From Sparassis latifolia (Eukaryota; Basidiomycota; Agaricomycetes; Polyporales; Sparassidaceae), in the NCBI GenBank assembly GCA_018466975.1, contig CM031562.1, forward strand, positions 1,116,001-1,180,000: 64,000 bases of DNA, read 5' to 3'. Positions 1-52,015 of this stretch are shown here, in pieces. Both the position numbers and the translations under genes were made by a program. Position 1 is the first letter of the stretch. Every line of letters starts with the position of its first letter. The notes below the pieces were generated by a model that saw nothing but the letters and a program-made list of their open reading frames with translations, ran no database searches and was not told the origin of the DNA.

Positions 1-1451
1 AATGCCAGTCACTTCCCGCGAGTTGCGAATGGTCTCGCTGCATCTCTACCAAACTATTATTCTGATTTTGGTGGAACACATTCGCGGTGAACAATGCGAT
101 GCCACTGTTGATTGGTGTCGAGGGGCTCCTACATCTGGCCACGGAAGTCCCACGAAGGTATACAGCAATGACAAAACAGAAGATTTGTTTACTGGGTCAA
201 GTTACCACCTGCTAGGTTCTGCAAGTGCAGTCCGTCGTGGCATTCTCGAATCCAGGGTCCCTTGTTCGCGCACATGTACACCTGTCCAGGATGCCTCTTG
301 TCATCTTCTCCGTGATCTTGAAAACGTCATGAAGAACTTTGTCTGGCATCGGTCCCCGAGTCGAATTCGGTCTGACATTGTTCTTGTCCCCAAAACCGAC
401 TTGTTCCGTGTCTACTCCGCATGCAATCCGTTGCTTTATCGATGCACCTTTTTGTTCCCGCTTTTCACTGTTGTATCCATACGCCATAAGACAATGTCGT
501 GGATCCGGCGTCTGGTTGCTGGGGATTGGCAACTTTGGTGAATTGTGCGGACAGCGTGGGCACTGTTCTTCTTCCCATGAACGAAGTCGACGGTCGTCGC
601 CTCCTTGGGCGGACCAAGTGCGGAAGTGAGGTCCCCTTAGTCACTATAGTAACTATTCTCATCACTCACACTGCCGACGACTCGGACAAGGCACATCGTT
701 CGCGATGAGCAGCCTCCATCAGATCTCGCCTGGGTACTGATCCTTAGACTATCCTCGCATTTATTCTTCCACCTTCCCGCAAGGTCCCCGGGCTGGGTTG
801 TACATAGCGAAATTGACAGTCTGCCGTGCCTTCTTGAATTTCGATAATGCTATCTATAGCACCGCCTCTCCTCCCGCTCCTCACTCCCTACCGCCTCGTA
901 CATGTAAGTAGCATTGCAAATATTGGTACGCTATAGAGACCGGTCAAGAGTCTAATACTAGTACTGCTAGCTAGTCATTAGCTCCATCGATAAATTTGAT
1001 GCCTCACGCAATCGTGGCCAACGTACCAAGAGAATGCCTCGTGACATGTTGACACTGGAGCCTTGGGATGCGTGCGGGTGCCAACTTCACGCGTTCCTGA
1101 CTACAATCTTGCAAAGAAAAAGACAGTTACAATGGTATATGAATGTCATATGTATGTACAAAATGCAAGAAAACCCAACAATGATTGTTATGGACTTGTG
1201 AACAACAAGTGCAAAGCAGAATATCTGGAGCGAGGAACAACAGCATGTCGCGGGGATGTTACAATATTTCGCAAAAATGTCCAAATCACGAACGGGACTG
1301 GACGCACCGAACCCCATAAAAATGAATTGTCAAAAAGTCCCTCATACACCGAGAAATGGATAAAACAACAGAAGTACATCGGCACCGAAGATGACCGAAC
1401 CAACGTCACTACACAAAACATGAAGAGTTAACGAGTGTGGAAATTTGCGCT
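1..1451. other. No gene recognised
   Basis: Open frames occur here (for example 2-541 on + and 212-532 on -), but none shows a family motif, a plausible intron chain or a link to a neighbour. The stretch from about 1060 to 1440 is visibly A/T-rich compared with the rest of the window and may be 3' flanking sequence of the minus-strand gene that ends at 1452. A partial gene cut by the window edge cannot be excluded. Confidence 0.5.
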
Positions 1452-9143: not shown

Positions 9144-12100
9144 ATGCCAGCCGATCTCACGAAGCCAAGCGGTTCAACTCGTCTTCGTCGTGCCGGTCGG
9201 AAGGACAGCGAGGAGATCAGGTTCGAGAGCAGTCGCGAGATTGAACTGAAACGCAGTAGGGGCGAGATTTCATGCGCGGAGTGCCGTAGGTACGCTCCTA
9301 TTGTCCGCTCGCTCCGAGATGCTACTCATCAATGGAATGCTGTCGTAGATTGAAAGTGCGTGGAGAGGACATGTTGATGTATCGAAATACTGAGTTGATA
9401 GCAATTGATTGGTTTATTAGATCCGTTGCGATAAAACCATCCCATGTCAATCATGTCAGGTATGCCATACCCAACTTGTCTCCGGTAAATGCTGCAGTTC
9501 ACGTTGCTTGACAGAGGAGAGGGTGTGCAACACTATGCCCCAATGGTACGGAGTTTATCTAGTTATTACAGACCTTCCCGAGTTTCATGATTGACCCAGG
9601 GAGCCTTGCCACCGGACAGGGAACTCGGTATGCAAAGCGCCCACTGATTGGTGACTTCATGCACTCATGATGTGCAGCTTTGTTCTAGCTGCTACAGAAC
9701 ATCTCCACCAACGGATTGCGAAAATGAACGAGCGAATACGACAATTAGAGGATGCCCTCGCAATAGCCCATGCAAAGTATTCTAACGAGCCCCATCCTTT
9801 GCTAACTGGCGACAAAGCAACCGCTTCTGCAGAGCAGGAAGAGGACCTACCCATATCTCGGAATGTACCTACTAACATCCGGGACGCTATTGACGCGTTC
9901 GGAACATTGTCAGTTTCCGACCATGGTGTCTCAAGATTCTTCGGCCCAACAGGAGGAGCTGAGGTACGTACATGACCTGTTCCTGCGTGACATTGCCTTG
10001 ATATCATGTTCTAGTATCTCCTTACCGTGAGTGTCATCTATTCTTCCTTCTGATATTCGAATGACCGGATTTAGGTGGACAGCGACGCAGCATGCACATC
10101 CTCCGACGCTGACGGTGCATCCCCTGAATCAATACGAGATTCGGAAAGTCCTCCTGCTCTGGGGGAGCTCCTGCGCTTCTCCTCTGCCTTCCCGTTCACA
10201 CCCACGGGTAACTCTCATGCAGTGTTTGAACTTGTTGAGAGCCACCTGCCACCATATGAGCGTGCATCCCAGCTCGTGGAGATGTACATGGAGCGCGTCG
10301 CCTGGATGTTCAATGGAATCACGCGAGAACAGGTCGTCGGAGAGATGCTCCCTTATTTCTATCGTCGACCCACAGCAGATCCATCGTCAACAGTGGGCTA
10401 TTCTGGTCCTCATGCACTTAGCCTGCTGTTCTTCATCTTCGCTGTCGGAGCGCTGGTAGATCCTCAGCAAGAGCAGTCGCATGCAGAAGGGGCACACTAT
10501 CAGCAGCTTGCCAATGCTGCATTATGTCTTGAGCCCGTGATGGCGAAGCCCGCTCTTGTAACTATTCAGGCACTTCATCTGTTTAGTGTCTACAATGCCA
10601 TGGCAGATAATGGTCCTGGTGACAGCGAGGCTAGTATGGAAATGTCTTGGGGTCTGTTCGTGCTTTGCGCTCAGTTGTCCCACAGCGTACGTCAGATGTC
10701 TCTTGTCGTGGATGCCCTGGACTGATGTACTTATAGATTGGCTTGCGTAAGTCTGCTGCTTTCAGATTTTTGTACCTGCTCTATGAGAACTCCCTCATTC
10801 ACTATACCGCTAGATCGAGACAGCGCAAGGTGGGGCTTGAGTCAGAAGGTCGTCCATAGACGTCGTATCTTGTTCTGGACCCTGTTCACGGCGGATGTGT
10901 GGCAGGTTGCTACCTTTCTCATGTGCTATGTGCCGCCTCTGATGATTATTCAGAGTCTTACCACAGGTCGCCCTCCATCATTCTCGCGTCCATACTTAGA
11001 TTGCAAGTATCCTTACTATGAGAAAAGTATGCGTGAAGACAGCGAAGCCGTACTAGACCGTCAGTATATATCGATGTTTCATAGTTTCGTCCTCTAATTT
11101 GAACATGCTTTCTTCCTAGACGCCTCGTGGCACTGTCTCTTTACAGCAGAGTGCGTAGCAGAGGTAGCGTCCAAGACCTTAACAGCGGAAGGTCCCTCCT
11201 ATGATACCATCATGGAACTCGATCGTCTAGTGCGCGATTTTCCTCAAGCTCCCGGTGAAGCAGAAATGCTCGAAGAACGAGAATCCCAAACAAATAATAC
11301 ATCGCTACCTGTACCAACTTCCATGCAGCGGTTCATTTTGGCACACTCCCGAGAAGTTCGTGAGTAATCGTCGTTTCATCACAACATGCGACGTCTGACA
11401 AAACATGCCTTGCTGGAGTCCTGTTGTACATCCATCGCAGCTTCTTCGCTCAGGCCATCATCGATTGTCCCGCAAATCCTCTCCGAAGTGCATACGCATC
11501 TTCGTTCCTGACTGCGTATAGATCATCGTGCACAATCATTAAAGTGATCCGCGATCAGTTCGCCATTTATCCGGGTGTGTGCGCACGAATTTGGCCAATC
11601 TGGACGTACGCCTTTTCAGCTGCCGTACGCAGTCTTACTTGTCATTATCGTCCTTGTCGCTAACGTTCCGGTATTTTTCAGGTCGTCTTCGGGACAGTGG
11701 TGGTCCGAGGACCACGGTCACCCTTAGCTTCTGCTGCGATGGTGCAATTAGATCTGGCTTCCGTTTTGTTCAAACAGGCGGCAAGTCATTCACCTCGCGC
11801 TGCCAAAGCTCAAGTGAGTTGCAGTGTTTCGTTAATTCTTCATGCCAATCGTTGCCTGTTGTAGCCCATTATCATGAGGCTCAGCGAGAAGGCTCACAGC
11901 TCTCTGTCTGGGGCGCAGAATAATCCCTCCGCCGAGGGCGCATACAATGGCTCCCTATGGAATGTGAACACCGAAGATTTCGAAGATGAACTGGAAATTT
12001 TCGCGGGCCGGACAAAATTGGTGGCTTCCAAGCGACTGTCTCATTCGCCTTCGCAGCATCTTGACCAATTGCATCAACCATTCACGGAGGCGCCATCTTT

Positions 12101-13095: not shown

Positions 13096-16000
13096 ATGCC
13101 CGCTGAGACGCGCCGAACGCGTAAGGCATCAGGAGACGACGAGCTCGAGCTCAAGCGTGCGCGCGGCGAGATTTCCTGTGCAGAGTGTAGGCGGTACGTC
13201 CCTGAAATCTAGTAGCGATTGGTTGAACGACAACAGTCGATACTAGTCTGAAGCTCAAGTGCGACAAGAAACTCCCATGTGGTTCATGTGTCCGCAGAGG
13301 TTGCACCACCATTTGTCCAAACGGTAAGATGACGATCCCCTACCTGTTATATCACGGCTTACATTGACCACCATTGAAGGCAGTCTGTCTGCAGGACAAG
13401 GTACCAGGTGAGTCCGAAGGGAATTGTGTCATGTCCCGCTTCCCTTCATTTATGCAGGTTCGTACTCGCGGACACCGAGCAACTGCACCGCAAGATCGCG
13501 GAAATGAGCGAACGAATACGGCAGCTGGAAGATGCACTTGCCATATTCCAGGCAGGCGTCTCGAATGAGAGGCACCCTCTACTTCGAGATGAGCTGCTCA
13601 CCGTTAAGTTTGGACCTGAGGTTCGCCGCACCGTGGACGAAGAAAACTCTCGAGACCAGCTCTCGCATTCGATCGATGCGCTTGGGACGCTCACTATTGG
13701 CGATCATGGCGAGACTAAGTACTTTGGTCGTTCGGGGGGTTCCGAGGTTCGTGCACCAAGTGACCCAAGTACCTTCTATGCGATCGGTGACTAATTTACA
13801 CTTGCACCAGATGCTCTTGGTGAAGTTTGGAGTCATAGTCGTCTTGAGTTTCCGTGCTGATCGGTATCTAGACTGGAAGTCCTATTGAGACCGATGCTAA
13901 CGACTCACCATCGGTGTCGCTCGAGGTTGCCAACTTGTCTGCATCCTTCCCTTTCTCCGTTGTGGAGAATGGCATTGATGCATTCCTGGACAAACTCGAG
14001 TCTTTCCTGCCCCCTCAGCCTCGTGCATGGGCGCTGTGCGAGGCTTATCTCGAACATCTGGGGTGGTGGTTTAGACCCATTAAACGGGACGAGATGGTCG
14101 AAGACATCCTCACACCGGTCTATAACTATCTCAAGAACCCCGCAAAGTCAAAGCGGACATACCATCCCTCTCATGAGGAACGATGCCCGCACCTTCTGGC
14201 CACGCTATTTATGATATTGGCAGTTGGCGCCCTCCTAGATTTGACCCTACCTCCGTGCAGCGCGGAGGCTGAGAAATATCATCTTCTGGGACGCGCAGCC
14301 CTATCTGCTCGTTCGGTGTTCGATTCCCCAGCCATTGAAGCTGTTCAAGCTGTCGCACTTATGTCGGCATATCATGGCGTGTGTTCCTCTCGCTACACTA
14401 TCGAGAGTGCCTGGTCCTTGATCTCATTGGCGAGTAGACTTTCCCAAAGTGTACGTTGTTACCTCGTGACGGCCTGTGCCTGATTGACCTCGTACTAATC
14501 TTTCTTTATCACCTTACCGCAGATCGGACTACGTCAGTATGTTTTACCATCTATCACACTTTGACTGACAAGTCTGTAGATCGCGACAGCAAGCAATGGA
14601 AATTAGACGACAAACACGCTCAACGACGCAGAAATCTTTTTTGGGAGATTTTCTTCTTAGAGATCGTTCACGTACGTAACTAATTGCATCGTATTTTCTG
14701 ACGTAACTTCGGTTGGCGCAGTGTCTTTCTCTGGGACGCCCCCCTACGCAGGTACTAGCTCACATTGATTGTGAGCTTCCGGCTGACGACGAGCAATTCG
14801 TGGCCGAGGATGGCGAGGTGTATCTAGGATGTATGGTATCTGCCCTGTCGTGTTCCGTGTTAATAACGCTTGTAATCTGTCCTTTAGATTGGCAGCACAA
14901 GTTTGCCTTCTGTCGCGACATCTACGCGGAGGTGGTGGACGTCACGTCTTCCACGAAGTCTCCCGCTTATGCGAAGGTCCTGGATATTGACCGCCGAGTT
15001 CGACAGATGACACCACCGCCTATCAGATTATATCTCCGGCCGGACGAGGATGACTACTCGAACCCGGCACTTTGCATGAAGAGCTACGTCCTTTCCCATC
15101 ATCGGTCCATTGGTTGAGCAAACATGTTGTGTTATATTTGATAGTTCCCACTGTATTAACGTTCTCCCCGTAGTGATGATCCACATTCACAGAACCTTCT
15201 TCGCCCAGGCACTCCTGGATTATCCAAAGAACCCTCTATCCAGCCCATTCGCGCCTTCATTCCTCGCGGCGAACCGCTGCGCATCCATCTTGCTCAGATC
15301 ATTCGTCCACCATCACGAGCGATGCAGTGACTTATGCAGTCGCTCCTGGGTCATGTGGAGTCACGCATTTTCGTCCATCGTGAGCCAACGTGTAGTGCCT
15401 GACAGCGTGGACCAGCGTTGAGCGTTCTCTGAAGATGATACTAGGCACTACGGTGATCCGGCTCCCGAACGCGATAATGGCACCTAGTGCGTTAATGGAA
15501 ATCGACGTTGCGGTTGATGTTTTCAAGAACTGTGCAAACAAGTCCGTTCGTGCACGGCAGGCTTTGGTATGCACACCTTCCTGCTGATGTACTATTTACA
15601 GCCTAACAGGAGCCTTGCATAGCCATTGTTACTCAGGTTGAAAGAAAAGGCTGCACTTGCGTACTCGGAGTTCCGCAACAGGAACGCAAGTCCTACAAAG
15701 GGTATTCAGCTACATATTTCGCCCGAAGACCAACTTGAGGATGAGCTCGCCATTTTTGGAGGCCAAACCCGAGTGTTGCCTACTAAGAAGATCAAGAAGC
15801 GACCGAAATCGCAGGTTGCGTCCGGTGCAGCGATTCCAGCGGTTCCAGCTCCTGCATCCACTCCGAGCGACATCGTCTCCTCACCGCGGTCTCTATCAGA
15901 CGACTTCACCGACCTCCATCCGTCGTTAATGGAGTACCTCTCTCAGCTCCCGTCCTCCGGATCTTATACAGTTGTGGACCAACCGCAGCATGTGGCAGAC

Positions 16001-41537: not shown

Positions 41538-44500
41538 ATGGCGAACAGTATTGTAGGAACGCTTCCCATCAAACACACCGTGGATCCTAATGGATCACTC
41601 TTTCTTGATGTTCCCTTGCAACTCCCGTCGGCGAAAGTGTCCCCGAAGATATCTCTGTCCTACCATTCTGCCGCAACCAACATCTCTGCGATCGGAAAAG
41701 GATGGGTTATTAAGGGCGCATCTGTGATCGAGCGCGTTCCTGCGACCGTGGCTCAGGATGGCTTTCGTGGTATGTGCGTGTCTCTATCCTGTGGTTGTAG
41801 ATTCACACTCTATCTGTTTTTAGGCGTGATCAATTATGACAAGAACGACCGGTTTGCCCTTGACGGTCAGCGTCTGGTTTCTATAGGCGGCAATGAGTAT
41901 CGCTTTGAAATCGAGCAATGGTCGAAAGTTACTGCCAAGGGATCTGACCCAGCCAATCCTGAATATTGGACCGAGCATCTCCCCGATGGTACGACCCGTA
42001 TATTTGGTAATACTCGGGTACGTTCTACGATGTCGATATTTTTCTCTTCCAAAGTTCACATCGCACGTTGTCAGGACTCCAACATAAAGGCGAAGGGCGG
42101 TACGGGGACGCGCGTGTGGGCAATATCCGAAAGTTCAGACGGGTTCTCAAACTACGTCACTTATTCTTACAACAATGATATTCGACAAGGCGCATTTTAC
42201 TTGACGGAGTTGAACTACGGAGGAAATCTTTCTTCGAGAATGGCCCACCAGCGCCGGATCACTTTCGAGTATGAGACGCGCCCAGACAAGCTGGTCAAAT
42301 ATATTGGTGGCTACGAGGTTTCCATTGACAAGCGGTTGACCTCCATCTCGTCACATGTGCAGAACAACTTTGTGCACAAGCATCATCTTCAGTACGACGA
42401 GGCTCCTGTCACAGGTACGAGCCGCTTGATCAATGTCGCTCTTTCCGATCCGTCGGGAGCGTCCGTCAGGCCGCTCAAATTCGACTGGGTCAATGGAAAC
42501 CGAGCCATTTTCGATCCACTCGATCCATCTAGGGCTGTTACCATCGAAACCGAGGATCCGAATGCTCAGGTACTTCCTCTGGACGTCAATGCTAGCGGGA
42601 GGAGCAGCCTCGTTATCGCTTCTAAGCGCATCCAATCTGGTTACCAGAAACTCCATCTTGCTGTGCATATCGCGGACGATGATGGTCGTATTCCTTCTTC
42701 GCCCGACTCCGTACTCGATAGTTTGCCCTTTCCCAAGCAAATTATACCGCTGGATATCAACGGAAATGGGAAAACTGATTTGGTGCGCAATCTTGTTCCC
42801 AAGGTATTCTCTTCATATTTAGTTCTATTGCGCAGCTTCATATCATGTCGACGATGTCGTCTCACACTCTTACCGTCATTCTTTCTACTCCACAAGGCTA
42901 CGAGCCTCAACAGCCTGTCACCTTCTCACCGGAGGCTATGGGCGGACACTTTCACTCCGGTGACTTCGAGGTATAATTTCGTGCTTTCTGCGATATTCTG
43001 AAGATATTGATTCGTCATTAGGGTAATGGCCAAGTTGGTTTGGTATACATATACAACCGCATGAGCGGCGGGCGCCAAAATGTGCGATTTGTCCAGTTCG
43101 TTTCGGACAGAAAGCAGTTTACAGCTCTGCCCCCTCGCGACGGACCTGCGTATGTTAGTCTGAAGAATCTTCATGTCGTTGTCGGGGATCTTAACGGCGA
43201 TGGGTACGATGTTTCTGAGCTAGGACTTCCGTGATCTAACTCTATTTCCAATTTCAGCGCTGAGGATGTCTTCGTTATCTACTCAAAAATCAAGAGTGGG
43301 CGCACCGTTGGCCAGATTGACTTGCTACAGTCACGGGATGGAAGGCTTTGCTACCGGCAAGACGATGGCTTGACAAAAGCTGGCGAGGCCGTTTTGTGGA
43401 AATCGACAATAACATTCTTGCCTTACCCTGCAGACGAAGACGGAAAGACAAGTCTCCTGGCAGTCTCGGACAACAACGGTTACCTTTCAACCCAACTGTT
43501 ACGCAGCACTGGTCCTTCCTTATTACTGCCGTCCTCGCCGTTGGTTACCAACATCGCGTATAATGGACATCTTACCCTGGCGAGGACCACTTCGACTGGC
43601 ACAGTCGATCTCGTGAATACCTTCACGAAGCTATCCGGAGACAGGCAGACTAATGTCAATGTTCTACGCTTCTTCAATAACACCTTCGTAAATACGGAAG
43701 ATGTTGCACAGCCTGGAAAGTCATCCACTTCAGTGGTGTGGTCCGATGTTCGCGGAATCGGACGTGCGGATTGCTTGCTGAATACCATAGACATCCGCGG
43801 CAAGCTTACCATATCCCCGATGGTGTGTTCGTCTTCCCAACCCTTAGATTTCATATCTGGCTACGAAAATGGCCTTGGGTCCCGCATCTCGGTGTCATAC
43901 GCCCCTCTCAGCGATGGCTCAATCTACAGAACAGACAGCACGCCCGAGTCACCGTTGCCTGCTCTGAACGCCATGGCGCGTAATGTGTCCTTGAGCACCA
44001 CGCTCACTTCGTCCCCGACACAGCAGGAAACGGCACACAGCCGCTCACAGCTCATGTATTTTCCCTCTTGGGTTGTTAAACAACTTGACAACACTCCTTG
44101 TGCAGCCAAGCCTGCTGTGGTTGATCAAATCAACTACAAGTACGCTAACGCAAGACTAAACTTTGACGGACGAGGCTGGCTTGGATTCGAAGAGATTACC
44201 AAGTCTAGTCGAGTGCTCGGAACATCCGAGAAGACACATTATCGGCAGGAATACCCATTTATTGGCCACGCGTCCCAAGTGGAAATTAGGTCTGGTGGTC
44301 GGCTGCTACAAGATAACAGGTACAATTTTGAGACCACACGGTCGAACGCAGGAAATAACTGCTCCGTTCGACTGCGTAGTGTTCTCGAAAGTACCTATGA
44401 TGGTGGCGCGCTTGCTTACGAAGTCGATGTCTCATATGCATATGATGCCTTCAATAACGCCACGAATCTCACCATCAAGTCTCCCCAGCTGCAGATGCCT

Positions 44501-47500
44501 GCGTTCACTATCCAGTCTACGTTCGAGAACAATGAGCAGTTTTGGGTCCTCGGGAATAAGACGCTGGAGGTTGTCAAGCAGAACGGCGTTGTTCTGAAGC
44601 AAACCAAGTACGCTTTCGTTCCGCACACGCAGACTACCAAGGAAGTAAGCAGCTGGGTGAGCGGTGACACTTGGTTGGCTCGGATCTTCGAATTCGACGA
44701 GACTGGGAATGAGACTATCGTCAAGGGGCCAGGGCCAGCTAAATCTTCGTTCACATATGATGAAACCAAATCTCACGCAGTGGCTACATTGACCTACACT
44801 AGTGCCGACGATCCTCCGTTGAAGGAGACTTTAGCCTTTGACTTGGTACACGACAAGCCGGTCTCGGTCACAGACTCGAACGGGTTCACTACGTCTACAA
44901 CTTATGATGTACTTGGTCGCATGCAAGAGATTTCCCAGGGGGACGGCTACTCGGGGATGAGTGTTGTCGAGAAGCAGTCGTTCCACGTCGACGGCACGGA
45001 CTTCTACCAGTTGTCACAGATTCGTACGGAACTCAGAGCGGGCGAGGACAGCTGGATGGACACTGTGGACCATATCGACGGCCTCAATCGTAAGTGGAGG
45101 AGCGAGAGGCCTCGACCCGATGATCCCTCTGCGTTCATCTACACGGATGTCGAGTTCGACGGGGCTGGGCGAGTTGTCGCCCGCTCTCGAGATTACTTCG
45201 CCGGCTCAATGCCTACATTCACAAGGTACACCTACGACACGCTTTCTCGTGTGATCAAGCAGACGCTACCACCCGCTTCTTCGGGTGTGTCGCCCATCAC
45301 AATCACGTCCAGATATGAGTTCCAGTCAGGAATATCCAAGATCACGGAGACTCGATCCGATGGAAACACAGCCACGGAGCAGATCAGCACCCGCGAAGTC
45401 CAGTTCCTGCCCAACCCAGAGCCTTCCGCCTCCAAATTCGTCAAGCCGTTCGTGGTTAGATCGACGAACGAGCTGCAGCAAAGCATCCAGACGGTCTTCG
45501 ATGGTTTGGGAAGGCCCGTTCGCATGAAAGATCCTTCAGGTGTTCAACTGTCTCTAACCTGGGATGGTCTTTCGCGTGCCACCGAACGACGTCTCACAAA
45601 CTCTGGGAATAAAGACATCAGTCATTTCGTCGCCAAATACGATGTTGACCTTTGCCTAGCTACTGTCTGGAACAAGCTTACTGGATTGTCGACGACGACT
45701 AAATCGGACTTCATCCAGAGACCAATCTCGAGGACGACAGCGGACGAGACCCTGACTTACACCTACGATAAAGGAGGGCAAAATACCAAACAGCGTTTGG
45801 TTTCTGTGACGTCTTCGAAGGGTATCGACTACCATTTTGACTACAACATCCGTGGGAAGTTAATCACGCACAGCCTCTCACTCGACGGCCACAAATTCGT
45901 TACATCTCATGAATGGTCACCCTTCGGTCAGCTTCTACGCACCACGAACCCTGATGGTACTACCATCGCTCGAACCTTCTATGGGGACGGCGAATCAGTA
46001 AACCGGGTTGTGCTCACGGATACCGACAACACTACCCGGGCTTGGATCGCCCTCGACGAGTTCAAAGACGTCTTTTCTCGTCCTCTCATCTGTGAATTCG
46101 GAAACGGGTTAAGGTCCACATCTTCCGTCATGGAAAGTGGTATGCTCGCCAGCCGTATACTGTCGAAGGGCAGCAATGTGTTACATCGCCAGGACTGGAA
46201 GGTCGATGCCTTCAGTAGAATCGCCAATCACAGTGTCGGCCGCGGACGTAGTACAAGCCAGTTTTTAACCTCCAGTAATTCATTCCAGTACAATAATGCA
46301 GGTGCGAATGCTCGTCACTTCTAAAAGCTTTTGGTTGTGCTGAAGTCCCTCCGGATTGTCCACTCAGGCCAGCTCGTACAACTCCTCTCTGATTCGTCTT
46401 CACTTGTTACACAGCCCGAAGAGTTCTCCTACGACCAGAGTGGTAACATTACCTCCAAGGGCGGTAGAAAGTTCGTCAACGATGGTTGGCAACTGTCCAA
46501 AATAACCGGCGGTGATGGCCACACAGAATGTTCTTTCACTTATTCCCCTGATGGCAACTTGATTTCAAAGTCGAATGGTGCAGGGATAGAGAAGAATACA
46601 ATGAAGTATGATGCTAACGGGCGGCTTGTACAGCTGGACGAGACGTCGTTCGTGTATGACTTCAGTGGTCACTTGATCAAGGCGGTGCTTCCGAATGGAG
46701 ATGTCACGATGTATCCCAGCCAGTCATACGAAGTTACCGTGTCGGCGTCTGGAAGGGAAACTCACACATCCTACCTTGTCCATGGCTACCGCCGGGCCTC
46801 GCTCTCAACGACGAAGGGAAATGTCAAGGAAAGATCTCATGGCCCAGTCGTCTACTACTACCACACGGACCATCTAGGCAGCACGGTTGCAGCCTCCGAT
46901 GAGAAGGGCAATATAGTGACGTTATACCACTACGATGGATTTGGCAAGGTTTCTATCGATGGTCCTGACGTTGCCAGATACAAATACTCTGGCAAAGAAC
47001 AGTTTGCAGGCTTCTACTACTTCGGTGCCCGATTCTATGATCCGGATGTGAGTCACCAATTTGAAGGAGTTGTTGTTAGGCCACTTACTTTTGACAACAC
47101 AGGCTGGACGCTTCTTGACTCTCGATGATTACCCAGTGTCGTTGAATGAAATTTCACCTTCTACTTTCAACATGTACTCTTTTTCGCGCAATGATCCAAT
47201 CAATTTCATTGATCTCAACGGCAACGTACCAAAATGGCATTGGTGCGTCATCATGACTGACTCTGAGATCAGATTCTCATGTTTGTTGCTTTCGTAGGAT
47301 CTTAGACGGATTCCTTATCGCTCTCGGAGTGGGATTGATGTTTGTACCAGGTGTTAACATCTTCGTGGCGATCGGTGTTGGGATTCTTGCTGGGGCTGCC
47401 CTAGGAGCCGGTGTCTCTGGACTCATGTACGATTTCGACCATCGCAAGGGCTCCTACAGCGACAAAGACTACTTTGTCAATATGGGCATCGGCGCTGCGG

Positions 47501-48092
47501 CTGGTGCCGTCACGGGAGGAATCTCGGGTGCTCTCGATTTTATCGTTCCCGCGGTGACTTTGGCAGAGGTCTTGGGCTCCCGAGGTGCTCTGTTGACGTC
47601 AAAAGTGGGCAGAGAGCTCGTCGTTCGCTTCGGATTTAGGCTCACTACGAACACTCTCATGGGCATGGAGAAGAATATGGTGAAAACCGTTGCATCCAAC
47701 ATCTATTCGGGAAAACCGCTGGATGAGGGTCTGGGGCAAGCGGCATGGGAAGGCGCTGCTGAATCATTTGGACTGGCATGTAGGGCTTCTACGTATTCTT
47801 CTGATGTGTCAGACTTGTACTCATGGTTCCAACAGTGGGGGGCGAACTGCTTGCCTCCGTCAAGCCAATCCTCAAGGCGCGGTTCTTCGCGCGGCTCAGA
47901 AAACTGAGGTACCGTGGCTCCTATGACCTCACTACGCAGCAGAACGTGTCAGGCCTGAGGCGTCTGGTCAAAACGGTGGAATATCCTCTCAGGGAAACAG
48001 GATTCGATGTCAATGATCGATTCAACTGGAACATGGAGATGTCTGGGAGTCGCTTGAGATACGCACATGTACAAGACGTGACGTCTCTCTGA
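41538..48092 (+). CDS. Giant SpvB/RHS-repeat protein, TcB-TcC-like single chain
   Basis: About 2,017 residues in ten exons. Introns: 41770-41823, 42018-42074, 42783-42835, 42971-43021, 43204-43257, 46302-46367, 47048-47102, 47243-47297, 47780-47835. Residues about 5-370 match the SpvB N-terminal domain (VPLQLPSAKVSPKISLSYHS, GKGWVIKGASVIERVP). Residues about 370-560 carry D-x-N-x-x-G VCBS/FG-GAP-like motifs (LDINGNGKTDLV, VGDLNGDGAEDVF). A TcdB-middle-type phrase (YENGLGSRISVSYAPL) follows. YD/RHS repeats run to about 1660 (FTYDETK, TTYDVLGRMQ, FTYSPDGN, MKYDANGRL). The RHS core is YHTDHLGSTVAASDE...YYFGARFYDPD...SRNDPINFIDLNG (about 1665-1770). The last ~245 residues are Gly/Ala-rich and hydrophobic, with no recognised effector. 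No signal peptide. In bacteria these domains make a cocoon that encloses and self-cleaves a C-terminal toxin; function here is unknown. The 42783 donor is inferred because the next downstream donor would give a 32-nt intron. Confidence 0.85.
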
Positions 48093-48904: not shown

Positions 48905-51589
48905 TCAGTGCTCACCAACGATGACGCCCTCACGGAACATCCACTCATACGGCACCGAACCCGGGGTCGCGCTCGCAGTGCTGGAAGACACCCAGCTGGT
49001 CGTGGTGATGGTGGTAGTGATTACGTCACGCGCGACCGGGTCCGAGGGTGACGTCGACGTGGCGGTGGGTGCGGATGCAGAAGTTGTAGGCACAGTGCTC
49101 GGCCCAGACGGGGCTGATGACGCGTCGGGATTGAACACTTCGACGTCCAGAGCACCAGCAGTCGACGACGCAGTTGCGGTCGCAATCGAACTTGAGGCCG
49201 AGCTTGACGTCGGGATCGAGGTCATAGACGCAAACGCAGATCCAGAGGTCGTAGCAGCCATCATGTCGTCCTGGCCCGCCGACGTCGTCGCTGAGTCCGT
49301 CGGTGCAGAAGCCGAGTCAGAAGATGTCGCAGACATAGCTGTCCATGAACCATCAGATCCCGAGAACGTCGTAGCAATCGCATCCGAGTCTGCATTAGTG
49401 AAAGTAGCCGTCGCCGTTGTCATCATCGCTGAAGAGGCCGAATCCGTCGCAGTCACCATCGCAGCCATAGAAGAAGAGCCCGAAGCAGTCGAAGTCATGT
49501 CCGAGTCTGAGTCCGAGTCAGAATCCGCGCCAGCACCCACGTCAGCACCAGCATCCTCGTCAGCACCAGCATCCTCATCCGCGTCATCGTCCTGATCGGC
49601 TGCAAAGTCCTGCGTCTGAGCTGGAGCGATTTCCGGTGCAGCCGGGGTGAACACGAGTGTCACATTACGCGCAAATCCCGCTCCGGGAGTCGCATCGAAC
49701 GTGTTCACGAACGCTGCGCGGCTAGGAGGGCGCGTGGCGTCGCCATACTCCTCATCCAGCGCCGTCCCCGAGGACAGATCTGCCACGCCCGTTGTCATAT
49801 CGCTCGCTGGCGTTGCCGTGCTCTGCGCCGTACTAGTGGTCAAGGTCGCGTTGGAAGCTGAGCTCGAGGTATTAGCAGCAGGAGCAATAGATGCCGATGC
49901 GGTCGTGTTCAGGCCATTAGACGCGTCGTACTCCGTGAACAGCGGGCGGAGGCTATTGGTGAAAGGGTCAAACGCGAAGATCTGGCTCTTGTGCGGGTCG
50001 TCGGAGCTGCCTTCCATGCAGATCTCCACTGTGAGAGGAGACGGCACAGGTGGATTTGGGTCGAACGTCGCGCAATAGGGCCTTATCGCTGCCTCTTCCG
50101 CATCGAACATCGGTATCTGCAGCGTGACCCTGTGGAACGACGAGCCGTCCGGTACAGTGGCGTTCGTAGAGTTGGACATATTGCTGGGGGCGGCGGTCAA
50201 GAAAATCTGAGTCTGAGCTGAGCCTGACGCGTTGAGGACAAAACTCGTCGAGTTCGTAGTGGAATTGGAACCGCTCGTACTATTGTCTGCCGGCTGGGAG
50301 AGAACAAGCGATGCAATCTTCTGGGCCATGGTAGAATTCGCCACCAGACTCTGCAGATGCTGGGTTAGCTAGGGTTCGCAAGATCGACCGATGTCACGAT
50401 CGATACGCACCATGATGTCGATTGAGCCTTGAACGCCCTGCATCGATCCATCATCGCGCTTGACGCGAACATGGACAGTAGCGTCGAGGTCGCCGTCATG
50501 ATCCTGATACCTACCGTACACGCGGACGTTGGCACTGACATTGACATCGTCGTCACTACGAGCATGAGCGATAATATACGAGTCGCCATGCTCGCTGGAC
50601 ACGTAGATCGACGAGTCACGATCCCTCCGGTGCACGTTGACATGATCGTGATCACCGTTCACGACCACCTTGTCGTGACCATGGCGGTCGTGGTCGTGCG
50701 GCTCCCTTGGAACGTGGACGTGGTCGTTGTCACCGTTGACAACTACCTTGGTATGGTCATGGTCCCAACGATGGTGCGGCTCTGGCGAACGACGGACGTG
50801 CACGTTGTCGTTGTCACCATTGACCACCACCCTGTCGTGGCCATCATGGTGGTGGTGCGGTTCGGGCGAGGGAGAACGGCGCACATGCACACGGTCGTGA
50901 TTACCATTGACGACAACTTTGTCATGGCCATGACGGTGCCTCTTCTCGAGCATCTCATACTCGTAGGAGTGGGGACCCGCTTCAACGTGAACCTCTTCCT
51001 TCTGCGTCTGCTGTTGAGGGGCGGCATTGGGACGATCTCCGATCCAGATACCGCCGACCTGGAGGAGAGGATCGAGGGGGTCCCAAGGGGCTCTCTGTAA
51101 AGCATCATCAATGAGCGTCCGCCGCAACAAGAGGGCATTGAGATTTGCCTTGTCTTTATGGTGTTTCTCCCCCTTGTTATCCTCACCCATCTTGGAGCCA
51201 TGGTGCGACGAAGATTGAACGGTCTTCTTCTCGCCCTTGGATACCTCCTTACCATCACCAGCTGATGACGACTGGCTGACCTTCTTCGCAGCAAAGAGCG
51301 CCGGAAGAGGGAGAGTCGGCTTGGGGTAGAGCGCCACTTTGGATGACCTCGACGCATTAGCAGAAGCAGTCGTCGTATCGGAGGAGTGTGAATGGCTGGT
51401 ATGAGTGGAGTGATGAGAAGTGGTCGAGGAGGTCGAGGCTGTCGAGGTAGCCGAGGGGGCTGACGAGTCCGAATCGTGGTGAGAACGGATCTCGATGGCA
51501 GCGCCAGCAGCAGGTGCAGGACAAACAGAGAGTGCAGCGATGGACGCAAGGCCAGCGAGGAGAGTGAAACGGGGCGTGAGGACGACCAT
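48905..51589 (-). CDS. Secreted protein with His/Asp-rich VVVNG repeats and Ser/Thr-rich tail
   Basis: No family recognised. From ATG 51589 the product starts MVVLTPRFTLLAGLASIAALSV, a clear signal peptide, then a Ser/Thr/His-rich linker. Between about 50950 and 50600 four tandem units of roughly 25-30 residues follow a common pattern H-[GD]-H-[DT]-[KR]-VVVNG-[DN]-x-D-x-V-[HN]-V, linked by Pro/His/Arg stretches (HDKVVVNGNHDRVHVRR, HDRVVVNGDNDNVHVRR, HTKVVVNGDNDHVHVPR, HDKVVVNGDHDHVNVHR). Then comes a possibly beta-rich region (SIYVSSEHGDSYIIAH...VNVSANVRVYG...LDATVHVRV). One intron (donor at 50410, acceptor near 50360 or 50351) joins a second exon with VTLQIPMFDAEEAAIRPYCATFDP, then about 300 residues of Ser/Thr/Ala/Asp low complexity with many N-glycosylation sequons near its start. 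It ends PYEWMFREGVIVGEH. The unit pattern suggests surface metal binding (inference). A GTGAGC word just before the stop leaves a further exon possible. Confidence 0.75.
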
Positions 51590-52015
51590 GGTGGAACTAG
51601 GATAGCGAAGTGAAGTAGAGTTGGAAAGAAAGTGGGTAGAGAAAGAAAGTATCAGGCGATCCTGTCGCAAAGAGTGAATAGATTAAGGTGAATGTGAAGG
51701 ACCACCTGGGTCTAAGTCTCTAACGATAGCGAACGAAAGCAAGGGGCACTGGGGGGAAACGAACCGTCGGTCAGATACTTATACCCTCCTGCGCCGGTCA
51801 GCCGCCGACGCCACCGACAGCACTCGCAGTGTCGCCGGTGTCGCCGGCACGTCATTCCAGATCGGACGGGCAGCAGCCAAGCAGCGACAGTCGATCGATC
51901 GACGTTGAGTCGCAGACGCGCCAATGCTAAACGCGTCGGTCACGTGCTGGGAACATACCCGCGACCGAAACAAAATGCAGAAACAATGCCAAAGCCACCC
52001 AGCCCCAGCATTACT
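51590..52015. promoter_or_regulatory. Upstream region of secreted protein and U6 gene
   Basis: The 425 bp between the minus-strand secreted-protein start and the U6 gene must hold both promoters. A TATA-like word (on minus, tataag, from about 51783) lies 190 nt upstream of ATG 51589. No TATA box is visible 20-35 nt upstream of U6. Confidence 0.35.

Follow-up and report, generated by a model that had tools for sequence, protein, structure and literature searches.

An intron-containing gene for a predicted single-chain SpvB/RHS shell in the basidiomycete Sparassis latifolia and its bacterial relatives

The gene and its domains

Here we describe a gene of the basidiomycete Sparassis latifolia that encodes a giant protein of the SpvB/RHS type, akin to the hollow shells in which bacteria carry toxins, and which lies at positions 41538-48092 of a 64,000-nucleotide stretch of genomic DNA (C11:1116001-1180000, the ‘window’) from a 41.4 Mb assembly of 22 contigs; the locus lies 1.16 Mb into C11. 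The original prediction was of an intron-rich protein resembling a fusion of the TcB and TcC components of bacterial Tc complexes, and the gene structure that it proposed holds: ten exons are separated by nine introns of 51-66 nt, all GT...AG (Table 1), with exon limits set from frame continuity together with GT-AG sites, in the DNA and in the listed open reading frames (ORFs) of at least 60 amino acids. The open frame of about 2,017 residues is likewise recovered, as 2,012 whole stop-free codons plus five intron-split codons reckoned from the exon limits. Exon 6 by itself is an open frame of 1,014 codons, compared with a maximum of 324 when this DNA was resampled 500 times under a Markov-1 model.

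Pfam searches were made exon by exon, and NCBIfam searches on seven of the ten exons. The SpvB domain was correctly foreseen: PF03534 reaches 20.8 bits in exon 1 alone (cut-off 22) and 27.4 bits once its surroundings in the natural frame are included, and exons 1-3 match the N-terminal region of SpvB-bearing bacterial ORFs. The YD repeats and the RHS core are also as described, with RHS_repeat (PF05593) scoring 64.4 bits in exon 6 and 40.7 bits in exon 7, and PF03527 scoring 30.6 bits in exon 7 (cut-off 27.9); the DPxxFIDxNG boundary is found in a listed ORF, and the Rhs_assc_core model TIGR03696 is split by intron 7, such that exon 7 (16.6 bits) and exon 8 (25.3 bits) each fall below its cut-off of 32.5. 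Two other proposed segments stand in part. For the VCBS-like motifs the sequence offers little (FG-GAP/VCBS at E = 0.1, in exon 5 only), and it is fold and kinship that point to a propeller; for the segment of TcdB-middle type, support comes from the fold, and at E <= 1 none of the ten exons matches PF12255 or PF12256. PF12255 is also absent from the whole fungal genome, in a search that finds matches in 5/10 genomes.

Searches of the PDB by sequence give a similar picture. Exon 6 finds no Tc chain at E <= 1, its only matches being Tse5 (the best, at 0.0053) and Tse15, with E near 0.005-0.04; given this, and the missing PF12255 and PF12256, the ‘TcdB-middle’ label rests on fold and not on sequence. 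Exon 7 matches a type VI secretion system-type Rhs protein first (phmmer, 2.9e-8) and then TccC2 (5.8e-4), exon 3 has no match, exon 9 has a single match at E = 1.9, and the RHS core compared with mosquito SGS4 is non-significant (E = 0.16). Barring a further upstream exon, exon 1 has no signal-peptide-like start (maximum 19-residue hydropathy 0.85), and hydropathy stays below 1.6 throughout exons 1-8, with no membrane anchor ahead of the shell.

Table 1. Exons and introns of the Sparassis latifolia SpvB/RHS gene (window coordinates), with segments of exon 6 in exon residues
Feature	Position	Strand	Description
Exon 1	41538..41769	+	Start codon and first part of SpvB domain; PF03534; phmmer 3.4e-13 to L012
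Intron 1	41770..41823	+	54 nt, GT-AG
Exon 2	41824..42017	+	SpvB domain continued; phmmer 2.7e-12 to L046, 1.5e-11 to L012; no notable Pfam match
Intron 2	42018..42074	+	57 nt, GT-AG
Exon 3	42075..42782	+	End of SpvB region and putative start of FG-GAP-type beta-propeller; phmmer 1.9e-25 to L011 residues 187-412; no Pfam match
Intron 3	42783..42835	+	53 nt, GT-AG; donor picked to keep the frame open into exon 4
Exon 4	42836..42970	+	Putative propeller blade; open frame; no Pfam match
Intron 4	42971..43021	+	51 nt, GT-AG
Exon 5	43022..43203	+	Putative propeller blade with DLNGDG motif; FG-GAP_3 E 0.1, below cut-off
Intron 5	43204..43257	+	54 nt, GT-AG
Exon 6	43258..46301	+	1,014 whole codons; propeller part, TcB-type wall and TcC-type wall
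Exon 6, residues 1-193			Propeller
Exon 6, residues ~194-707			TcB-type shell wall
Exon 6, residues ~708-1014			TcC-type shell wall
Exon 6, residues 713-726			Low-confidence loop adjoining the TcB/TcC junction
Intron 6	46302..46367	+	66 nt, GT-AG; holds a stop in the exon 6 frame
Exon 7	46368..47047	+	YD repeats and first half of RHS core; PF05593, PF03527
Intron 7	47048..47102	+	55 nt, GT-AG
Exon 8	47103..47242	+	Second half of RHS core with DPxxFIDxNG boundary; TIGR03696 below cut-off
Intron 8	47243..47297	+	55 nt, GT-AG
Exon 9	47298..47779	+	Post-core: two adjoining very hydrophobic Gly-rich stretches, then more predicted helices
Intron 9	47780..47835	+	56 nt, GT-AG
Exon 10	47836..48092	+	Basic tail, net charge +7, and stop codon; no family matched

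Predicted shell, core and C-terminal piece

A model of exon 6 built from a 44-row alignment, with a predicted local distance difference test (pLDDT) value of 79.1, has TcdB2-TccC3 as its best match by both Foldseek and VIA-align, in a match that spans the B/C junction. The supposed likeness to a fused TcB-TcC is now seen in the predicted fold, across that same junction, and exon 6 as modelled has the hollow YD/RHS shell of a Tc-BC type fold. The fungal protein thus has SpvB, propeller, shell and RHS core in common with the BC component of Tc toxins (TcdB2-TccC3, YenB-YenC), but differs in being one chain, in having no PF12255 and no TcA that could be found, and in carrying nothing that Pfam or NCBIfam recognises behind the core.

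In Tc toxins and SGS proteins, one Arg and two Asp residues are needed for auto-cleavage, and teneurins are described as having no last Asp (PMC9935623, in excerpt). The exon 8 Arg (codon 47109) and both Asp residues (codons 47124 and 47211) align with a relative from the Flavobacteriales, L011; a second, L012, aligns with the Arg and first Asp only, as its piece ends early. By this alignment, which held no Tc sequence, the Arg-Asp-Asp positions of the putative auto-protease are kept in the fungal core. Loss of the second core Asp was also considered, and was dismissed by the L011 alignment together with the description of SGS1 (PMC9935623, in excerpt).

By analogy with the known cleavage site, and reckoned from exon lengths, about 251 residues would follow the core cut; the corresponding figures are given as ~230 for mosquito SGS1 (with putative transmembrane helices in the shell), ~200 for Tc toxins and ~90 for teneurins (PMC9935623, in excerpt). 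Exon 9 opens this region with hydropathy values of 2.26 (exon residues 5-23) and 2.29 (residues 21-39), and over its first half it shares homology with the stretch behind the core in L011 (phmmer, 27.9 bits, exon residues 14-80): neither the reversed sequence nor any of 200 block shuffles gave a match, and L011 alone was matched among 41 bacterial/archaeal ORFs. A hydrophobic post-core piece is thus recognisable in the translated sequence, and with some 250 residues there, opening on a very hydrophobic region, the ‘purely structural shell’ first allowed as a possibility becomes less likely. The model of exon 9 is all-helical, at a pLDDT of 51.8 that is too poor for a fold search.

The post-core stretch is partly hydrophobic in L011 and L012 also (maximum 19-residue hydropathy 1.81 and 1.53), and behind it each carries a PT-HINT domain (71.9 and 66.8 bits) followed by a tail. 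No HINT was reported in two other relatives, L018 and L044, so the cassette is not universal among the single-chain proteins. In fungal exons 8-10 neither Pfam nor NCBIfam finds HINT or any toxin family above cut-off, and PHROGs gives weak matches only, at chance level. Pfam holds a Tox-SGS model; no Pfam family at all reaches its cut-off in these exons. We suggest that the piece is membrane-active, and that nothing enzymatic lies behind it.

Single-chain relatives, ancestry and genomic setting

Plasmid records contain 25 distant matches to exon 6, all below 60% identity, and three of these relatives are single ORFs of 2,089, 2,579 and 2,007 residues, each with SpvB, FG-GAP and RHS_repeat. When prokaryote genomes were scanned with a four-row alignment, 89 relatives came back, of which 80 were kept, and the natural ORF under the match was taken for 40 of the 80; 25 of these 40 are closed at both ends, with 19 of the 25 measuring 1,800-2,800 residues from stop to stop, and all seven scanned proteins of that kind hold SpvB, FG-GAP and RHS_repeat in one chain. 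The earlier statement that bacteria split this order over TcB and TcC is therefore wrong for this branch. One ORF in L011 matches exons 1, 2, 3, 6, 8 and 9 in order, and that of L012 matches exons 1, 2, 3 and 6; in these alignments the fungal domain order is collinear with single bacterial ORFs, which supports the exon assembly.

L011, L012, Rhizobium WP_120670428.1 and Parabacteroides WP_228002651.1 arrange these domains in the same order within a single ORF of some 2,000 residues, and the fungal gene is set apart from them by its nine introns, its weak FG-GAP score and its want of both PT-HINT and a signal-peptide-like start; bacterial SpvB-propeller proteins with RHS repeats, and with a signal peptide before SpvB, appear in a table of PMC3482391 (in excerpt). 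In the 44-row alignment, identity to fungal exon 6 is only 16-21%, and the best local matches reach 25%. With exon 6 alone as query, the first scan of genome contigs and one scan of viral contigs confirmed no relative; phage records gave no match to exon 7, and plasmid records none to exon 9. In two relatives, L025 (Marinicaulis) and L032 (Kiloniella), the match spans more than one ORF and the chosen ORF aligns from query residue 443 or 509; query residues 51-445 lie in a separate ORF of L025, and the break is not at the TcB/TcC junction.

Closer donors were sought at E <= 1e-25 among 395 genomes of the L012 phylum, where the one match was L012's own genome, and among 398 genomes of the L018 phylum, where there was none; at most two candidates per genome were scored in these scans, and the limit is strict enough that L018's own genome fails it. 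At E <= 1e-15, the 42 genomes of the L012 order gave L012's genome and one further relative, L091. In a 22-row tree of exon 6, the fungal row falls within a nine-row clade with support of 100/100, alongside L011, L012 and L091 (Flavobacteriales and kin), L045 (Myxococcales), L017 (Thermoanaerobaculia), L016, L018 (Shimia) and L046 (Rhizobium), and the same nine rows are united in a 45-row quick tree with a Shimodaira-Hasegawa-like approximate likelihood ratio test (SH-aLRT) value of 96. The place of the fungal row inside the clade is unsupported (29/21), and its branch is very long, at 2.99 changes per column in the 22-row tree and 2.43 in the quick tree; these trees comprise neither Tc BC rows nor other fungal rows.

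Conservation was measured over columns of exon 6 filled in at least 30 rows, against the consensus of the other 43 (bacterial/archaeal) rows. The fungal residue equals the consensus at 27/37 columns conserved at >=90% (0.73), at 17/39 columns conserved at 80-90%, and at 91/539 columns conserved at <40% (0.17). Retention thus tracks conservation, which gives moderate support to the purifying selection that the open frame had been taken to imply; set against this, the fungal row keeps 44/75 of the columns conserved at >=80% (0.59), fewer than any of the 43 prokaryotic rows, the minimum among which is 0.77. Constraint therefore looks real, but relaxed or changed relative to the prokaryotes. The pattern would fit a long evolution under the constraints of a shell, without proving a present function. 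The notion of a transferred gene that is still open yet becoming a pseudogene is the least probable that we weigh, since the low retention, the weak FG-GAP and SpvB scores and the long branch which speak for it are met by 2,012 whole stop-free codons, nine canonical introns and a contrast in retention that neutral drift would be expected to erase.

As anticipated, no TcA-like gene is seen: the TcA families PF18276, PF20220 and PF03538 have no match in the window or anywhere in the fungal genome, in a search that an intron-split TcA could escape. The PF18276 search does work, because it finds matches in 5/26 genomes with single-chain relatives (the 26 chosen from the 80 loci), and by a post hoc count it is present in four of the seven clade members searched and in one of the 19 other genomes. 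PF12255 frames occur in 4/5 of these TcA genomes, and in three they lie on the same contig as TcA and measure 2,636-2,701 residues, which suggests natural TcB-TcC fusions beside TcA in bacteria. The contigs concerned are G006 C35, G018 C855 and C433, and G002 C262, with the frames roughly 3-14 kb from the TcA match. These frames are distinct from the single-chain relatives: the ORFs of L011, L012 and L044 have no PF12255, and that of L017 (2,486 residues) was judged from its length to differ from PF12255 frames of 2,636 and 2,696 residues. The genome of L045 (G019, Myxococcales) has a TcA match and no PF12255 match, a case in which that TcA and the single-chain SpvB/RHS protein could be partners. 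Single chains of BC-like form probably exist in bacteria both with and without TcA. On present sequence evidence, the fungal protein is best placed with the branch that has no PF12255, and is not to be filed as a Tc toxin.

No second copy of the gene was seen in the genome, the RHS core exon, RHS_repeat and SpvB each matching only here (counts that are lower bounds), and the gene appears to be single copy. With its nine introns, 2,017 stop-free codons and single copy in a fungal assembly, it is therefore a genuine fungal gene, and not the bacterial contaminant that the original prediction had already argued against. Contamination is further excluded by the size and contiguity of the assembly (41.4 Mb, 22 contigs), by its neighbours and by G+C content at third codon positions (GC3), which is 0.58 in the gene's exons and 0.51-0.74 in other window frames of at least 250 aa (not all of them genes). 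Fungal_trans, CNH and WD40 domains are found among the 19 other window frames scanned, most of which have no family.

Some features of this setting may be noted for their own sake. The Fungal_trans-like frames at 10075-10725 (15.8 bits, below cut-off) and 13872-14483 (24.2 bits, above cut-off) are possibly two neighbouring transcription factor genes. On the minus strand, 48905-51682 holds two adjoining long frames of 487 and 437 aa, neither with a Pfam family above cut-off, the translation of the first being apparently enriched in Ser, Thr, Ala and Asp. DUF6534, a family typical of Agaricomycetes, has nine matches in the genome, seven of them above cut-off; those at G000 C8:1716820 and C8:2413979 have the same score and the same frame length, and are perhaps a recent duplication.

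What the shell may do

Synthesising these results, the interpretation that we favour, at a probability of about 0.46 and so at slightly less than even odds, is of a naturalised bacterial-type single-chain shell, anciently acquired, that releases membrane-active helices without TcA. A gene for a single-chain shell with SpvB domain, FG-GAP propeller and RHS repeats would have been acquired long ago by horizontal transfer, and would have become an ordinary single-copy, intron-containing fungal gene. The YD repeats would wind into a hollow ‘cocoon’, with the propeller closing one end and the RHS core the other, and the core would cleave the chain immediately after the FIDxNG boundary. The C-terminal piece so released, of some 250 residues and comprising hydrophobic helices, further helices and the basic tail, may then stay enclosed and shielded until the shell is opened by a trigger, whereupon the piece would insert into or disrupt a membrane. 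The shell would work alone, with no TcA pump, and its likeliest use might be antagonism or defence against another organism.

A related proposal, which we put forward tentatively and hold at appreciably lower odds, is that the gene represents a separate eukaryotic domestication of a bacterial single-chain shell, with neither HINT-toxin cassette nor TcA and with self-cleaved membrane-active helices, and as such would be the fungal counterpart of mosquito SGS1. That protein, which is among the fold matches to the exon 6 model at rank 43, is likewise described as a eukaryotic single-chain Tc-like shell with core Arg-Asp-Asp and ~230 buried residues; features of its own are a length of 3,364 residues, two propellers, carbohydrate-binding domains and a Tox-SGS domain (PMC9935623, in excerpt). 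The likeness at the C-terminus would lie in the hydrophobic stretches of exon 9 and its low-confidence helical model, with burial suggested by analogy.

Several points weigh against the reading that we favour. Age, selection and donor all rest on one fungal sequence at the end of a very long branch, and exons 4, 5 and 10 have no match in the 41 bacterial/archaeal ORFs. A fungal TcA split by introns could have been missed, PF20220 and PF03538 having matched nowhere, and the excess of PF18276 in the clade, a post hoc count, may point to some connection with bacterial Tc systems. The start of exon 1 is not signal-peptide-like, leaving no evident exit route for the protein. The exon 9 model is of low confidence, and the ~165 residues behind the hydrophobic half have no known relative.

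Of the other explanations, that which survives best is a domesticated structural or recognition protein, akin to the teneurins, whose shell would act as scaffolding or as a surface for adhesion and from which no piece would be released; we regard it as unlikely. Teneurins and a teneurin-like protein are among the fold matches to exon 6, there is no HINT and no known toxin domain, and the shell keeps fewer of its conserved residues than all 43 prokaryotic rows. A protein of this kind fits poorly with hydropathy below 1.6 across exons 1-8, which leaves neither signal peptide nor membrane anchor before the shell unless a further upstream exon supplies one, with the retention of the core Arg and both Asp where teneurins are without the last, and with ~250 post-core residues where teneurins have ~90 (PMC9935623, in excerpt).

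Two further explanations seem to us improbable. In the first, the gene would be part of a true fungal Tc system, its product being a natural BC fusion and docking on a TcA from another locus. A 2026 report on Metarhizium offers the parallel: A, B and C genes and a knockout phenotype for the A subunit are described there, with A on another chromosome (PMC13236867, in excerpt). The closeness of the exon 6 model to TcdB2-TccC3 lends this explanation some weight, as does the residence of four of the seven clade relatives searched in TcA genomes; what speaks against it is the failure of three TcA families to match in the genome (with PF18276 alone having a positive control), the absence of PF12255 both from the genome and, at E <= 1, from every exon, and its occurrence in 4/5 TcA genomes in frames other than the single-chain relatives. 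In the second, the protein would be a polymorphic-toxin carrier used in competition, with an unrecognised enzymatic toxin in late exon 9 and exon 10. The region sits where L011 and L012 carry HINT and tail, its ~165 residues of no known family are room enough for an enzyme, and transfers of toxin domains to fungi are on record (PMC3482391, in excerpt); yet no Pfam, NCBIfam or PHROGs family is found there above cut-off or beyond chance, there is no processing domain, and the exon 9 model, low in confidence as it is, is helical throughout.

Fungal relatives of such proteins are not new. A 2011 paper noted Tc-like toxins in Trichoderma, Gibberella zeae and Podospora (PMC3218866, in excerpt), and these, with the Metarhizium complex that is reportedly encoded by spliced genes, resemble our case in being fungal and in the bacterial transfer suggested for them (PMC13236867 and PMC3218866, in excerpt). 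They differ in that the fungi concerned are ascomycetes, and in that Metarhizium has separate B and C genes as well as an A gene (PMC13236867, in excerpt). Cladobotryum is mentioned as having a TcdB-middle domain (PMC6409746, in excerpt), and Rhs proteins are reported in Sclerotinia and Monilinia; Ss-Rhs1 of Sclerotinia, a fungal Rhs-repeat protein linked to hyphal infection and sclerotia and called secretory (PMC6390599 and PMC5987419, in excerpt), is set beside our gene by description only. Among the literature matches listed, judged from titles and the starts of abstracts, we recognised no basidiomycete SpvB/RHS protein of this kind. Novelty is therefore smaller than was first claimed, the single-chain layout being common to bacteria and fungal Tc relatives being known; what marks the gene as a distinct variant, as far as its sequence can tell, is that it combines the lack of a HINT cassette with a retained core and with a hydrophobic region following that core.

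The finding corrects the idea of a TcB-TcC fusion as a eukaryotic novelty. If the reading favoured here is right, closed RHS cocoons would have reached a non-ascomycete fungus in the form of a functioning gene that contains nine introns, and at least twice in eukaryotes such shells would have come to carry hydrophobic helices, and not recognisable enzymes. The opening of a Tc-like shell in the absence of a TcA pump, and the targets against which fungi use it, would then become accessible to experiment.

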